NCBI GenBank assembly: GCA_938002955.1
Contig: CALLAA010000071.1
Location: 1 to 64,000, forward strand
Direction of reading: 5' to 3'
Source: an uncultured Acidimicrobiales bacterium
Lineage (GTDB): Bacteria > Actinomycetota > Acidimicrobiia > Acidimicrobiales > SHLQ01
DNA length: 64,000 nt
Part shown: one piece after another, positions 36,113-44,036 of the stretch
Layout of the letters: each line of letters starts with the position of its first letter
Numbering within the stretch: position 1 is the stretch's first letter
The notes under the pieces: model-generated
The model's database searches: none
Seen by the model: the letters and a program-made list of their open reading frames with translations, nothing else
What the model was told of the DNA's origin: nothing
Program-made: the position numbers and the translations under genes

Positions 36113-37255
36113 ATGTCCAGCCCGAGGAGACGCGTCTCCGCTCCATTCTCCGCGTTGGTCGACAACGAGGTCTTCGCCGTCGACGAGCGGTCGGCTCAGC
36201 TGATCGTGCGATCGACCGCCGACGTCGTCATCATCGATATCGACGGACGGCAGATACCGGGGCAGACGTCCCAGGGCGTTGCCGTGATCAACGTGAGCGA
36301 CCTCGACGCAGACACGTCATACCGGGCGACCATCCGGACCGAGTCAGGGGAAGAACTCGACACCGTCGAGGTCCGCACTCGCCCAACATTGGGGCCGATC
36401 CGAGCTCGGTTTGCGACCATATCGGACGTGCACCTGGGAACCGATTCCTTTGGGGGCGGCCGGTCGATCACCGACGACCACAACGAGCCGTACCCGTTGC
36501 GGTGCGGACGTTCGGCAATCACCGAAGCGAGCGATTGGGGTGCCGAAGTGCTGCTCGTCAAAGGCGACCTCACCGACACCGGGGCGGCCAGCGACTGGGA
36601 CCTCGCTCAAGAGATGTTCGCCGACATCACGATTCCGTTCATGTTCACGCCAGGCAATCACGACGTATGGAAGTCGCGAGACCTTGAGCCAGCAGTGGGC
36701 GCTGGCCTCCTCGGACTACCCGACGCCCCGTTGCACTTCCACGACCTCGATGGCGTTCGCCTCGTGCTCGCCGACACGAGCAAACCCAATCGCGGCACCG
36801 GTGACCTTGCCCGAAACGCTGAGGCACTGAAGGAACTCGTATCGGTCGACCAGCGGGTGTTTCTCGGGCTCCACCACAACATTCAGCGCGCACCGGTCAC
36901 ATGGTTTTGGCCGCCGGGGATCCCATCGACAAATGCACTGCCCGTGGTCGAGTCGCTTGCGTCGATCAACCCAGCACTGTTCATCAGCTCGGGACACACC
37001 CATCGCAACCGTGTGCATTGGCTCGGCCCCGGTGAGCAAATTCCGTTCACCGAGGTCAGCGCGACCTCGGACTATCCGGGAGTCTGGGCCGCATACGAGG
37101 TCGGCGAGCGTGGGATTCGACAGACCGTTCGCCGAATCGCCGACCCCGATGCAACGAGCTGGACCGAGAAGACCCGGGCAGCGCTCTTCGGCGTGTGGCC
37201 GCGCTGGTCTCAGGGCCGACTCGCGGACCGGTGCGTCGATCTCGTCGATGAGTAA
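36113..37255 (+). CDS. Metallophosphoesterase
   Basis: ISDVHLGTD, LLVKGDLTDTG, FTPGNHDVW, LHHN, ISSGHTHRN. Confidence 0.9.
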   Translation: MSSPRRRVSAPFSALVDNEVFAVDERSAQLIVRSTADVVIIDIDGRQIPGQTSQGVAVINVSDLDADTSYRATIRTESGEELDTVEVRTRPTLGPIRARFATISDVHLGTDSFGGGRSITDDHNEPYPLRCGRSAITEASDWGAEVLLVKGDLTDTGAASDWDLAQEMFADITIPFMFTPGNHDVWKSRDLEPAVGAGLLGLPDAPLHFHDLDGVRLVLADTSKPNRGTGDLARNAEALKELVSVDQRVFLGLHHNIQRAPVTWFWPPGIPSTNALPVVESLASINPALFISSGHTHRNRVHWLGPGEQIPFTEVSATSDYPGVWAAYEVGERGIRQTVRRIADPDATSWTEKTRAALFGVWPRWSQGRLADRCVDLVDE

Positions 37256-37454
37256 TCAGCCGCTCCCCGATCATGTCGCGGCACGTCATCGTCGCGCCGT
37301 CACGGCTGGCGAGGCGTACTACTTCGACCCCGACACTGGCTTCCTCGTGATGACCGAATTGCACCACCTCGCCCGTGGCGAGTGTTGCGGCAATCGCTGT
37401 CGCCACTGCCCGTTCAGGACTGATCCACCATCTGACCTTCGAGGTGAATCGTGA
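37248..37454 (+). CDS. DUF5522-like small Cys-rich protein
   Basis: ATG 37248 overlaps the upstream stop (ATGAGTAA). YYFDPDTGFLVMTELHHLARGECCGNRCRHCPF matches the CCGxxCRHCP family pattern. Confidence 0.82.
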   Translation: MSNQPLPDHVAARHRRAVTAGEAYYFDPDTGFLVMTELHHLARGECCGNRCRHCPFRTDPPSDLRGES

Positions 37455-38928
37455 ACGCCCGCCGCGCTCCCGGGGGCACGTGGACGATCGTGACGATCGT
37501 TCCTGACGCACGCAGTTCTTCAACGACGCGTTCGAGTGCAGCGGCTCCTGAGTAGTCCAGTCGGCCAACGCCGCTGAGGTCGATGTCGACCTGTTCGATC
37601 TCGACATGTTCCGCGAGCAATGTCCGCAATGCCCGCTCGATCTGCGGCACGGCTGCGAACCACAGAACGCCTTGGGGCCGGACGATGAGCTTTTCTGGCG
37701 AAACCTCGTGACTGACGGTCACGGTCATCTCGCGATACAAGTGCACGGCCAAGGCGAGAACGATGCCGACGAGGACTCCGCGCTCGACCCGAGGGGCGAG
37801 CGCGAGGGTGGCGACCAGTGTGCCGATGCCGACGACGGCTTGAGCTGGTGACTCCCGGACCAGTCCAACAAGTGACCCAATATCGATCAGCTTGGCGACC
37901 CCGGTGATGATGAGCGCCCCGAGGACCGCCGTTGGGAGGTTTGCGAGAAGCGGTGTAAGCGGCAGCGCAGCGATCACCACGAGGCCGGTTACTGCACCCG
38001 ACCACGCACTCGACGCTCCCGCTGCGTGATTGAGCGAACTCCGGGAGAACGAGCCCCCGATGGGAAATCCGCCCGACAAGCCCGACGTTAGATTGGCGAC
38101 ACCTTGGCTGATCATCTCCCGGTTGGCGTCCCATGGGGTTCGTTCTGCCGTCGCAAAGACGCGAGCGATCGAGGATGGCTCAGCAAAGCCGATCAGGCCA
38201 ATGAGCAACGCAGCGGGAACGAGCGCCCCCGCACTCGACCATGGGAACGACGCCGAAATGGACAAGAAGCCGCCGGGGAGATCGCCGATCGTCGACCCGG
38301 AGTATCCCGTGATCGAGGAGACGATGACGCCACCGATCACCGCAAACAGCACACCGGGAAAGAGCTTGTGAATCTTTCGACCGCCGAGAACTGCGATGGC
38401 AGTCGCGATTGCGAAGGCGATGCTCGATGCGCTCCAGGAGCCCGGCGAGCTCACGCTCGCAAACGCGTTGGCGAGAACTCCGTCGCTGCCTCCCGCTACG
38501 CCGAGCACCTTGGGGAGCTGGCTTGAGATGATCAAGAACGCGGCGCCCGTCGTGAACCCGGTCAACACCGGATCCGACAACAGGTACGCCACTCCCCCGA
38601 GACGTAGGAGGCCGAGCAGCACTCGGGTCAGGCCAACGAGGAACGCCAGCAGCGCGGCGAGCCGGACGTACTCCGGAGAGAACGGTTCGGCGAGGCCTTC
38701 GAGCGCGCCGTATGTCAGCAATGCGGTTAGCGCCACCGGCCCCGTCTGCAGATACTTCGAGGACACGAAGAGCGCAGCAAGAACCGGTGGCAACGCTGCG
38801 GCGAAGAGACCAGCTTGGGCTGGCACTCCTGCGAGGTCGGCGTAGGCGAGCGCTTGGGGGATGACGATGAATGCGACCGAAGCCCCCGCCACAACGTCGG
38901 AGGAGCTTGGCCCGCGAACGGAGATCAC
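37414..38928 (-). CDS. SulP-family anion transporter with C-terminal STAS domain
   Basis: VAGASVAFIVIPQALAYADLAGVPAQAGLFAA; STAS domain VDIDLSGVGRLDYSGAAALERVVEEL. GTG start. Confidence 0.92.
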   Translation of the reverse strand: MISVRGPSSSDVVAGASVAFIVIPQALAYADLAGVPAQAGLFAAALPPVLAALFVSSKYLQTGPVALTALLTYGALEGLAEPFSPEYVRLAALLAFLVGLTRVLLGLLRLGGVAYLLSDPVLTGFTTGAAFLIISSQLPKVLGVAGGSDGVLANAFASVSSPGSWSASSIAFAIATAIAVLGGRKIHKLFPGVLFAVIGGVIVSSITGYSGSTIGDLPGGFLSISASFPWSSAGALVPAALLIGLIGFAEPSSIARVFATAERTPWDANREMISQGVANLTSGLSGGFPIGGSFSRSSLNHAAGASSAWSGAVTGLVVIAALPLTPLLANLPTAVLGALIITGVAKLIDIGSLVGLVRESPAQAVVGIGTLVATLALAPRVERGVLVGIVLALAVHLYREMTVTVSHEVSPEKLIVRPQGVLWFAAVPQIERALRTLLAEHVEIEQVDIDLSGVGRLDYSGAAALERVVEELRASGTIVTIVHVPPGARRAFTIHLEGQMVDQS

Positions 38929-39392
38929 TTCGACAGGGTCACGAGATCGCGGTGTTCACCGTCGCCCGAGTGTCCTGCACCCCGTTGTTGTCGTTCTCGA
39001 AGATGCAGCCCAATGAAGATTCCGGGGATAGCGATCAGGCTCAACATGGCGCCCGAGGAGAACATCACGAGGGCTGGGGCGGGACACGTTCCGGCGATGG
39101 CCCACCCGATTCCGAAGAGCGCACCGCCCTTGAGGTGATGCGCTTCGGGCTTCGAACGCGAGAGGCGAAGCTCGCCACCGAGCGGTGTCGTGAAGCCCGT
39201 ACGCTCGAGCAGCCAGAGCAACGGCGCAGATACCACGATCGCCGAGGCCATGAACAGGAAGATGTCGGGTTCGTCAAGGCGCAGCATTGCATGGATCGTG
39301 TCGTACTCGTGCAGGTTCATTGCACCGAGCACGCCACCAAACATCGCCCCAAACAGCAGGCCGATCACATTCAACTTCGCCGTGTTGCTCAC
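38925..39392 (-). CDS. YeeE/YedE-family protein (second half)
   Basis: LLFGAMFGGVLGAM, GGALFGIGWAIAGTCPAPALVMFSSGAM. GTG start overlapping the upstream stop. Confidence 0.88.
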   Translation of the reverse strand: MSNTAKLNVIGLLFGAMFGGVLGAMNLHEYDTIHAMLRLDEPDIFLFMASAIVVSAPLLWLLERTGFTTPLGGELRLSRSKPEAHHLKGGALFGIGWAIAGTCPAPALVMFSSGAMLSLIAIPGIFIGLHLRERQQRGAGHSGDGEHRDLVTLSK

Positions 39393-39868
39393 AGGGCACC
39401 GCCGGTTGCGATACGAAGGATGAAGGTCGTCAGGATCGCCGTGGCCATAAAGGTGGCCGTCACTGCAAGGCTCGCCGGGGACCGTTGGGCGGTGCCGCAC
39501 ATTCCGTGACCCGAGGTACATCCGCCGGCGAGCGCTGCTCCGTAACCGAGGAGGATCGCTCCACCCAAAACGAGCGGGACGGTGACGCCGAGCGGGAAGA
39601 CCTCGCGCAGTGCGTCGTATCCCGACCGGACCCCTGCGTCTTCTCGGAACACTCGGGTCACGAGGAGGCCGCCGACGAACAGGCCTACGAAGTACCAGAC
39701 TCGCCACTTGACCACGCCCTCGCTCCGGCGAAACAGTCCGGCCGTTTGGACGTAGGCACCGCTCGCTCCGAGCGGTTGGTTCGCAAGAACGAATAGCCCA
39801 ACGATCAGCAGTCCGAGAATCGGGCCTCCGATAAACCAGGGCAGGCGGTCGGGTAGCAGGTCATACAT
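39389..39868 (-). CDS. YeeE/YedE-family protein (first half)
   Basis: LGGAILLGYGAALAGGCTSGHGMCGTAQRS. Confidence 0.9.
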   Translation of the reverse strand: MYDLLPDRLPWFIGGPILGLLIVGLFVLANQPLGASGAYVQTAGLFRRSEGVVKWRVWYFVGLFVGGLLVTRVFREDAGVRSGYDALREVFPLGVTVPLVLGGAILLGYGAALAGGCTSGHGMCGTAQRSPASLAVTATFMATAILTTFILRIATGGAL

Positions 39869-39898
39869 CGTGGTTCCTTGTCGTACTTCGGGTGGTGA

Positions 39899-41275
39899 CT
39901 ACGCCGGTGCGTGTGCTGCGGTCCATGCGCCGTACCCGCCGAGAAGATCGGAGATGTCGGTGAACCCTGCACCGATCATTCGGCTCGCAGCGATCGATGA
40001 ACGGAAGCCGCCAGCGCAATACACGATCGTGGGCTTCGCGGGGTCGAGCTCACCGAGCCGCTCGTTCAGACGGGTCAATGGAATGACGATCGCGCCGTCG
40101 ACGACGCCGTTCTCGGTTTCGCCGGGCTGGCGAACATCGACGAGCTGGAGGTCGGCGACGTTCTCGATGGCCTCGCGCATCTGCGCCACGGTGACGCGCG
40201 AGTTCCGGGCGACGAGGTCCGGGTTCTGCGACAACGATCGAGCTGGCTCGACGAGGCACCCAATGACGTTGTCGAAGCCAATTCGAGCAAGGCGGACCTT
40301 GGCCTCAAGTTCATGGCCTTCTTCGGTGACCAGAATGATCTCGGCTTCTGGCGACAGGACTCCGCCGGCGAACTCGGCGTATCGACCCGCGAGGCCGATG
40401 TTGATCGATCCAGCCACATGGCCGAGCGCGAACTCATCGGGTGAGCGGGTGTCGAGAACCACGGCACCGTCGGCCTGGCGTGCAACGACGTTAGCGATCG
40501 AGAGAACCTGGGGAGCCGCGTGCTCGTCGAGCAGCGGGCGATTTTGCCGGTTGAGCATCGCGTCGTAGGAGAAGTATCCCGGCGGTGCAGTCTGACCATC
40601 GGTAACCACCTGGATGAACTGTTCCTTGGTCATGTCAGCGACCGCATAGTTGTTGTCGCGTTGTTTTCCGATCGTGCACGAGGTGTCCGACGATAGGTTC
40701 TTTCCACACGACGAGCCTGCGCCATGACCGGGGTACAGAATCGTCTCGTCGGGCAACGTCATGAGCTGAGTATGGAGCGAGTCGTAGAGGTCGCTCGCCA
40801 ATTCTTCGCTCGTCACACCTTTTGACGACAAAAGGTCCGGACGTCCGACATCACCGATGAACATCGTGTCGCCGGTGAGTACGGCGTGCGCGGGGCTATC
40901 AGCGTTTTCGTAGACGACGATGCTGATCGATTCGGGTGTGTGGCCGGGGGTGTGGCGAACCTCGAGCACGACCTCGCCGAGCTCGATTCGTTCGCCATGG
41001 TCGAGCTTGCGAGAGGCGAACTCGGTTTCGGCTTTGCTGCCGTAGGCAATGGTTGCGCCGGTGGCATCGGCGAGTTCGAGGTGGCCGGAGAGAAAGTCGG
41101 CGTGGAAGTGCGTTTCGAGGACGAGTTCGATCGTCATGTTGTGCCCAGTCGCGCTTTCCAGGTACGGGGCGATGTCGCGACGAGGATCGACGACGACGGC
41201 ACGGCCGGTGGTTTCGTCGCCGATGAAGTACGACGCCTGCGACAGGCAGTCGAGGTAGTGCTGTTCGAAGATCAT
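39899..41275 (-). CDS. Metallo-beta-lactamase-fold persulfide dioxygenase (ETHE1/BLH-like) fused to two rhodanese domains
   Basis: THFHADFLSGH, HTPGHTPESISI, LTGDTMFIGDVGRPDL, YPGHGAGSSCG; rhodanese 1 LDTRSPDEFALGHVAGSINI without active Cys; rhodanese 2 TIVYCAGGFRSSIAAS with Cys. Confidence 0.92.
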   Translation of the reverse strand: MIFEQHYLDCLSQASYFIGDETTGRAVVVDPRRDIAPYLESATGHNMTIELVLETHFHADFLSGHLELADATGATIAYGSKAETEFASRKLDHGERIELGEVVLEVRHTPGHTPESISIVVYENADSPAHAVLTGDTMFIGDVGRPDLLSSKGVTSEELASDLYDSLHTQLMTLPDETILYPGHGAGSSCGKNLSSDTSCTIGKQRDNNYAVADMTKEQFIQVVTDGQTAPPGYFSYDAMLNRQNRPLLDEHAAPQVLSIANVVARQADGAVVLDTRSPDEFALGHVAGSINIGLAGRYAEFAGGVLSPEAEIILVTEEGHELEAKVRLARIGFDNVIGCLVEPARSLSQNPDLVARNSRVTVAQMREAIENVADLQLVDVRQPGETENGVVDGAIVIPLTRLNERLGELDPAKPTIVYCAGGFRSSIAASRMIGAGFTDISDLLGGYGAWTAAHAPA

Positions 41276-41342
41276 GAGGGCGAGCCTTTCGTCGGGTGGG
41301 TCACGATACGTCGACTTTATGCCGACCGTCACACTATTGTCC

Positions 41343-41358
41343 AAATGTACGTACATTT
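41343..41358. promoter_or_regulatory. Perfect 16-bp palindrome AAATGTACGTACATTT, candidate operator
   Basis: Exact self-complementarity, located in the divergent promoter between the persulfide dioxygenase (-) and the DUF480 fusion (+). Confidence 0.75.
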
Positions 41359-41458: not shown

Positions 41459-42712
41459 ATGGAACTCGACCTGACCGCCCCAGAGATTCGGGTGCTGTGT
41501 TCGCTGATCGAAAAAGAGCGGACAACACCCGACCAGTACCCGTTGAGTACGAATTCGCTGCGCTCGGCGTGTAACCAAAAGACCAGCCGCGAGCCGGTTA
41601 TGGAGTTGAGCGAGCGTGATGTCGACTCTGCGGTTATGGGCTTGCGTGAACGCGGCCTTGCTCGAAGCGTGAAGCCAACGGGGTCTCGGGCGTGGAAACA
41701 TCGCCATGTTACGAACGAGGTGCTCCCGCTCGACGATGCCGAGATTGCGGTGCTTGCGGTGCTTGGTCTGCGTGATGCCCAGACCCCTGGTGAGCTTCGC
41801 CAGCGTTGTGATCGCATGCATCCATTCGACAGTGTCGATGAGGTCGACTCGACGCTGTCTGCGCTGGCCGCTCGCCCCACTCCCCTGGTTCGCAACCTCG
41901 GCAGGGAACCCGGGCAGAGCCAAGATCGGTGGGTGCACTGCTTGGGCGAGGAAGCAGTTCCGGCGTCGCAGAGCCGCCAGCGAGCGCAGGCGGCGACGTT
42001 TCGTGCGCTTCACGAGTCCGGCTTCTTCGCCATGCCAAATCCGTGGGATAGGGGTTCGGCACGCATGATGCAGGAGGCCGGAGCCCTTGCGCTTGCGACG
42101 ACCAGCGCCGGATTCGGTCGCACGATCGGCAAAGACGATCAGCTCGTGACTCGCGATGAACTCGTCGCCCATGTCGCAGACCTGACGGCGTATATCGACG
42201 TTCCGCTCAACGTCGATAGCGAACGGCTCTTTCCAGAGGCACCCGGCGGCATCGCCAGAACCGTCCAACTTCTCGCCGAGGCTGGCGCGGCGGGCGTTTC
42301 TATCGAGGACTACAACCCCAAGACCTCCTCGATCGACCCACTCGGTGCCGCCACCGAGGCCGTCGCGATCGCGGCCGCCGAGTGCGCCCGCCACGACATT
42401 GTCCTGACGGCTCGCACCGAGAACCATCTCTATGGCATCGAGGACCTCGACGACACGATCACCCGACTCAATAGCTTTCGTGATGCCGGTGCGCTGTGTC
42501 TGTATGCACCCGGCCCGAAGAACCTCGGCGACATCGAGCTTCTCGTCAGCGAGGTCGCCGCTCCACTCAACGTTCTCGCGTTCCCGGACGGACCGTCCAA
42601 CAGCGAACTTGCCGCGGCCGGCGTTCGGCGCGCATCGAGTGGATCGATCGTGTTCAACGCTGCAGCAAAAGCAGCGCGCCAGTCGACGATCGACTTTCTC
42701 GCTACTGTCTGA
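41459..42712 (+). CDS. DUF480 (YceH-like winged helix) fused to isocitrate lyase/PEP mutase-family domain
   Basis: N-terminal LTAPEIRVLCSLIEKERTTPDQYPLSTNSLRSACNQKTSREPVMELSERDV...; C-terminal ALHESGFFAMPNPWDRGSARMMQEAGALALATTSAGFG...AGAAGVSIEDYN...ALCLYAPG. One uninterrupted 417-aa frame. Confidence 0.87.
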   Translation: MELDLTAPEIRVLCSLIEKERTTPDQYPLSTNSLRSACNQKTSREPVMELSERDVDSAVMGLRERGLARSVKPTGSRAWKHRHVTNEVLPLDDAEIAVLAVLGLRDAQTPGELRQRCDRMHPFDSVDEVDSTLSALAARPTPLVRNLGREPGQSQDRWVHCLGEEAVPASQSRQRAQAATFRALHESGFFAMPNPWDRGSARMMQEAGALALATTSAGFGRTIGKDDQLVTRDELVAHVADLTAYIDVPLNVDSERLFPEAPGGIARTVQLLAEAGAAGVSIEDYNPKTSSIDPLGAATEAVAIAAAECARHDIVLTARTENHLYGIEDLDDTITRLNSFRDAGALCLYAPGPKNLGDIELLVSEVAAPLNVLAFPDGPSNSELAAAGVRRASSGSIVFNAAAKAARQSTIDFLATV

Positions 42713-42714
42713 AC

Positions 42715-43359
42715 ATGACAACGACCGAACCGGTACATCTCACCGTCTACTCAGACTTTCTTTGACCGTGGTGCTACGTCGCGACCGTGCGTCTCGACAA
42801 GTTGGCCGAGCAGGTCGGCGACCGCATCACAATGGAGTGGAAATCTTTCCTCCTTCGCGTCGAGCCGAAGACCGGTGATCGCGACAAGTTCATCGAGTAC
42901 ACCAAGAGCTGGCTCAATCCTGCTGAACAAGAGCCAGATGCGGCATTCACCGTCTGGGCGAGTGACGAAGGACAACCTCCCTCAAGCGTTCCAGCCCAGG
43001 TCGCGCACAAGGCGGTCCGCGCGTTCGCTCCCGACCGGGCAGACGACTATCACCACCGGCTGCTCACGGCGTACTTCACCGAGAACCGCAACATCGGCGA
43101 TAGCGACGTGCTGCTCGACCTCGCCGAGGACATCGGTATCGACCGAGACGGCCTCGCGACCGTCGCTCGCGAAAACCACGACGCCTTCGCAAAGATGGTG
43201 ATCGATGAGCACAACAGCGCTGTTCAGAGCAACGTCACCGCAGTACCAACGGTTGTGTTTGAACACGCCTTTGCCGTCCCGGGTGCACAACCCGTTGAAA
43301 CGTACGAGCGTCTCATCGAACGTATAGAAGAGAAGAAGGGACCAGCCGGAGAGGCGTGA
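42715..43359 (+). CDS. Predicted selenoprotein: DsbA/FrnE-like thioredoxin-fold oxidoreductase with UPWC active site (in-frame TGA at 42763..42765 read as Sec)
   Basis: ATG 42715 reads MTTTEPVHLTVYSDFL-[TGA]-PWCYVATVRLDKLAEQVGDRITMEWKSFLLRVEP... in one frame. TGA replaces the first Cys of CPWC. The ORF track lists the parts as 42496..42765 and 42787..43359, both in frame 1. Confidence 0.82.
42778..42798 (+). promoter_or_regulatory. Candidate bacterial SECIS hairpin
   Basis: GUCGCGAC - CGUGC - GUCUCGAC: 8-bp stem with one C.U mismatch, 5-nt apical loop with G at position 2 followed by U, apical loop 20 nt after the UGA. Confidence 0.65.
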
Positions 43360-43442: not shown

Positions 43443-44036
43443 ATGACCTTTTCTTTCGAACCACAATTGATCAAGCAGGACTCTGCGGTACCGCTGCGGA
43501 TGATGGTGGGCGGCTGGGTCGTGGGCGTCGCCGCAGTTCTGTTCGTCGGTCCTGTCGCGAACACGCTGATTGCGCTGATGGGGTTCACGCTCGTCGCCGG
43601 AGGTTTGGTTGCTCTCACGCTTATCGCACCGCGCACCTGGCGCATGGTCCTGGGCGCGGCTACCGGCGCAATCGCTGCCTGGCTCGGCTACAAGTTTGCG
43701 TTCCCCGATCGCTTGATTCCAGCGAAGGACGACCCCTTCGAATTGCTCGATCGAGACCACCTCGCGGCGGTCGCTGTTGGGCTCTCCACCATGTCGATTG
43801 GCATCGGCGGGCTGCTCGAGTCAATTCGTGCCCAAGCGGCCCCGGGCACATCACACATTGCGGTGCGTGTCCTGCTCGTTGCGATCGGCATGGTCATCGC
43901 CGGCGCGATCTGTTCGATTCTCGGGATCTCCAGTGGTATCTCTATCGTCGTCACCTTGGCCACCGCTGCCGGCCTGATCGCAATGGCTTGGTTGCGCCGG
44001 GAGCGTCCAAACAGCGCGTTCGTTCCCCGGGCATAA
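43443..44036 (+). CDS. Membrane protein, hypothetical
   Basis: Several hydrophobic segments; ATG 43443 (TTG 43398 also possible). Confidence 0.65.
   Translation: MTFSFEPQLIKQDSAVPLRMMVGGWVVGVAAVLFVGPVANTLIALMGFTLVAGGLVALTLIAPRTWRMVLGAATGAIAAWLGYKFAFPDRLIPAKDDPFELLDRDHLAAVAVGLSTMSIGIGGLLESIRAQAAPGTSHIAVRVLLVAIGMVIAGAICSILGISSGISIVVTLATAAGLIAMAWLRRERPNSAFVPRA

Follow-up and report, generated by a model that had tools for sequence, protein, structure and literature searches.

The window, the whole 64,000-nucleotide stretch analysed here, comes from the draft genome (3.9 Mb, 270 contigs) of an uncultured Acidimicrobiales bacterium and carries a single gene in which a YceH (DUF480) module is joined to an enzyme domain of the PEP_mutase family, which belongs to the ICL/PEPM superfamily. 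We judge this fusion to be a new, genus-restricted domain architecture made from two known families. The gene (41459..42712, + strand) runs from ATG to TGA with no internal stop and encodes 417 aa. The Pfam model PF04337 (DUF480) matches residues 5-153 (E 9e-53, 178.8 bits against a cut-off of 25, profile positions 1-149 of 149), and PF13714 (PEP_mutase) matches residues 181-410 (E 1e-57, 195.7 bits against a cut-off of 31.5, profile positions 1-236 of 240); chance matches are excluded for both domains. A preliminary description of the window had proposed one unbroken frame combining DUF480 with an ICL/PEPM domain, and the two full Pfam domains in one ORF bear this out. It had let the DUF480 region run to about residue 178, which is too far, as homology stops at about residue 162-165 and is followed by a linker of ~14 residues leading into the enzyme domain. 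The tandem winged-helix module comprises residues 1-162 (41459..41944, +), the linker residues 163-176 (41945..41986, +) and the PEP_mutase domain residues 177-417 (41987..42709, +).

The AlphaFold model of the fusion has a mean pLDDT of 83.5 and a pTM of 0.59 and is weak at residues 161-180. When its parts were compared with known structures using Foldseek, the N-terminal part matched E. coli YceH (5vyv) with a TMt of 0.89 over 173 columns at 45% identity, so that the tandem winged-helix fold of 5vyv is present in the model, and the second part matched 4lsb, 2ze3 and 4mg4, the first two of these being found by sequence as well as by fold. Since the two halves of the model match known structures, both domains are well formed, although the model does not fix their placement relative to each other. 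The linker varies among relatives by insertions and deletions, and this variability, together with its low model confidence and the pTM, gives no indication of a fixed interface between the domains.

The full fusion was found in 10 of the 11 genomes of the genus, i.e. in every one that has the locus; identity to the copy in the window ranges from 53 to 93%. The eleventh genome (G002) lacks the fusion, the selenoprotein gene that adjoins it elsewhere and the next gene downstream, which would reflect either loss of the block or an incomplete assembly. Every one of these sequences comes from a draft genome, and the three named records from the GTDB collection (L032-L034) are all Acidimicrobiales MAGs, which is a ground for suspecting that sequencing or assembly joined two genes artificially. 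Such an artefact is hardly conceivable, since 10 separate genomes have the same junction and the named MAGs come from three different projects; the recurrence of the fused frame in 10 independent MAG assemblies excludes a frame error, and with it the sequencing-induced fusion that the preliminary description had allowed for. The dN/dS values of close pairs are about 0.04-0.08 for both domains. Judged from these comparisons of sequences, the fusion is real, old and maintained by selection, with both halves under strong purifying selection.

Outside the genus, the fusion was not found in other genera of the same family; there, and in further genera of the order, DUF480 and PEP_mutase are separate genes. 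In two single-contig genomes (G020 and G024) they lie ~0.6 and 1.1 Mb apart by the record coordinates. The fusion was likewise found in none of 296 genomes of the class and 388 of the phylum (overlapping draws, about 680 in total), where the genes are also separate, nor in the plasmids searched. The earlier statement that YceH is normally stand-alone thus holds, in that it is separate from the enzyme gene in other genera and in the class and phylum draws. A scan of GTDB contigs gave three fusions among the matches listed, all in the genus, and the fusion is likely to be rare outside the phylum. A literature search retrieved no published record of the DUF480 and PEP_mutase architecture. In the DUF480 tree the fusions form one clade (100/97), and in the PEPM tree they are compatible with one clade (56/84), recovered in 63% of bootstrap trees; the sequences lend weak support to one origin for the enzyme half. 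The closest free-standing relatives of the enzyme half are 59-61% identical and belong to other families of the class. In four genomes (G045, G267, G121 and G132) whose alignments extend upstream of the enzyme domain, we looked there for a pre-fusion DUF480 and found none. From translations read by eye, we take the gene upstream of the enzyme in G267 and G121 to be pth, preceded by an rplY-like gene, with glycerol kinase downstream. At two loci from another family of the class (L139 and L140), a free-standing PEP_mutase homolog is flanked by rplY-like/pth-like genes on one side and glycerol-kinase-like genes on the other; this different setting could offer a clue to its role.

What distinguishes the N-terminal half from known members of the YceH/UPF0502/DUF480 family (PF04337; PDB 5vyv, 5u8j, 3bz6) is its C-terminal end. 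The fusion has the same full tandem winged-helix region and the invariant ACNQKTSR motif, but the known members are stand-alone proteins, in which, as in E. coli YceH, the winged helices are followed by a Pro/Ala-rich linker and a heptad-like tail (..AEVAELRxLVExLYxxLG). This C-terminal coiled coil, which was read by eye in the stand-alone homologs inspected and is not part of the Pfam definition of DUF480, is absent from the fusions, where the enzyme domain takes its place. The fusion is the only DUF480 detected in each fused genome and thus probably serves as the cell's YceH. A literature search on YceH and UPF0502 yielded no established function, and the matches to DUF480 were mostly longer DUF numbers with the same leading digits; the only hints retrieved were a computed interaction of YceH with proteins of transcription repression (PMC13246756) and the screen for H2O2 resistance discussed below. 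Given its winged-helix fold, we infer that the module may bind DNA or protein.

The enzyme half has the same complete TIM-barrel domain as the PEP_mutase family PF13714, represented by 4lsb (a putative lyase/mutase) and 2ze3 (DFA0005 bound to 2-oxoglutarate), with the same metal and Arg site and D-x-E in place of D-x-D, but is here fused behind YceH and bears the subfamily motif VDSERLF...SIEDYNP. Residues D227, D253, E255, E283 and R319 correspond to D58, D85, D87, E115 and R158 of the 2-methylisocitrate lyase PrpB and are invariant in 9 aligned fusions. The Mg/oxo-acid site of the superfamily is therefore kept, with an Asp to Glu change at the PrpB D87 position (E255), where 4lsb and 2ze3 also have Glu. 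PrpB and isocitrate lyase thus share the fold and the Mg-site residues with the fusion, at about 25% identity, but not the catalytic loop K-[KR]-C-G-H: the corresponding stretch of the fusion is EDYNPKTSSID, where KRCGH aligns with a gap and no Cys is nearby, and the fusion has no equivalent of Glu188 of methylisocitrate lyase. For isocitrate lyase, the loop Cys has been proposed as the catalytic acid, and replacing it by Ser abolishes activity (PMC7609661). We reject an assignment as isocitrate or methylisocitrate lyase because of the missing loop, and the prpB models score 56 bits on the enzyme half against a cut-off of 354. PEP mutase proper was also rejected, as the NCBIfam equivalog scores 17.8 bits, far below its cut-off of 319.55. 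Of the ICL active site that the preliminary description had proposed to check, the metal and oxo-acid part is retained and the catalytic part is missing. Its label of a C-C bond lyase is unsupported, because the Cys loop and Glu188 of the (methyl)isocitrate lyases are absent; the nearest families are PEP_mutase-like ones with no assigned reaction. A decarboxylase of the same superfamily is possible, the oxaloacetate decarboxylase of the PA4872 type (3b8i) being 22% identical by fold.

Two nucleotides after the fusion stop, at 42715, lies the ATG of a gene for a DsbA-family selenoprotein (42715..43359, +; PF01323, E 5e-26), and in two relatives the stop and start overlap as ATGA. The start and the 2-nt gap are as previously reported. 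All 10 genomes that carry the fusion retain the in-frame TGA (42763-42765, in the motif UPWC). The genome very probably decodes selenocysteine, because both a tRNA-Sec (G000:C48:24725-24816) and SelB (G000:C145:61045-62103) score above curated cut-offs. A probable SECIS hairpin with an 8 bp stem and the loop CGTGC follows the TGA (42778..42798, +); in the alignment 90% of cells are paired, against 28-44% when the hairpin is slid, and about half of the rows have one mispaired position in the stem. Its covariation showed no excess over shuffles, and the pairing comes mostly from invariant pairs. By its sequence, the neighbor is a genuine DsbA-like selenoprotein gene; such selenoproteins are already known in bacteria (PMC1794560), and the gene is of that same kind, a neighbor and not a part of the fusion.

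The genus has a conserved gene order of metallophosphoesterase (36113..37255, +, the upstream neighbor in all 10 genomes), fusion, Sec-DsbA and membrane-like protein; the last (43443..44036, +, start uncertain) has no Pfam match and is hydrophobic and probably a membrane protein. From the gene spacing, the fusion is likely to be co-expressed with the metallophosphoesterase and Sec-DsbA genes. Only in the window, G008 and G010 are the metallophosphoesterase and the fusion set apart by a divergent sulfur block (37414-41356, -). It encodes two YeeE/YedE-type proteins, an MBL-fold protein bearing two rhodanese domains and a SulP permease, the last present in 2 of these 3 genomes and not detected around the locus in G010. 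Sec-DsbA adjoins the fusion in 9 of the 10 genomes. In the other, G003, a 915-aa surface-protein-like ORF lies on the opposite strand between the two genes (L118:6190-8937, -). In sister genera Sec-DsbA is on other contigs than DUF480, and the same holds for the homologs with an in-frame TGA in G013-G016, G018 and G034. The synteny is therefore a trait of the genus and weak evidence for a pathway: of the coupling suggested earlier, the close spacing of the genes stands, and the shared redox pathway is only weakly suggested by an adjacency limited to the genus.

Our preferred interpretation, with a probability of about one half, is that the fusion is a two-module YceH, in which the coiled coil was lost and a PEP_mutase-family gene was joined once to give a clustered, bifunctional protein. 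The segment of a free-standing yceH that encodes the C-terminal coiled coil would have been lost, and the truncated gene would have been joined once to the enzyme gene, the two being unlinked in related bacteria. The product would be catalytically active, depend on Mg2+ and have a small 2-oxocarboxylate as its substrate, with decarboxylation or hydrolysis more probable than an isocitrate-type cleavage, and would also perform the cell's ordinary YceH job. The PEP_mutase/ICL superfamily is oligomeric, and the enzyme domain may have taken over from the coiled coil the task of clustering the winged-helix modules. That YceH and the enzyme are true functional partners on a 2-oxo-acid metabolite is a further proposition, which we consider quite improbable.

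A rearrangement could also have joined two unrelated functions with no coupling between them, as the short and variable linker, the one origin and the lack of linkage of the two genes elsewhere (L121-L131) would allow. We find this somewhat doubtful, as every genome of the genus with the locus keeps the fusion, at identities as low as 53%, with no re-splitting among them, although this argues for retention and not for coupling. It is unlikely that the protein is a metabolite-sensing regulator, whose PEP_mutase domain would bind a 2-oxocarboxylate signal and control DNA binding by the winged helices. The fold of the YceH half and the retention of ligand-site residues without the lyase catalytic loop are in keeping with such a sensor, but DNA binding by YceH is a prediction from the fold, the metal site is complete, as in enzymes, and the enzyme half has free-standing orthologs encoded by genes of their own. 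A thiol/selenol redox pathway, in which either the fusion or Sec-DsbA would supply or repair a substrate of the other, is very improbable. The gap or overlap between the two genes and their adjacency favor it, as does a first-round overexpression screen for H2O2 resistance in which E. coli yceH was one of 217 hits (PMC8228696). However, the screen was large and the hit is unspecific, the neighborhood is a genus-level arrangement, and the Sec-DsbA gene of sister genera is near neither DUF480 nor the enzyme gene.

YceH is widespread and its structure is solved, with no function assigned, and a natural, selected fusion is a concrete lead. The fusion indicates that the YceH tail is replaceable and points to an enzyme subfamily that could be assayed alongside YceH. 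It also offers a compact marker, specific to the genus, by which an uncultured Acidimicrobiales lineage can be recognized. A functional partnership of the two halves, if true, would be the first pathway assignment for this widespread, uncharacterized family.
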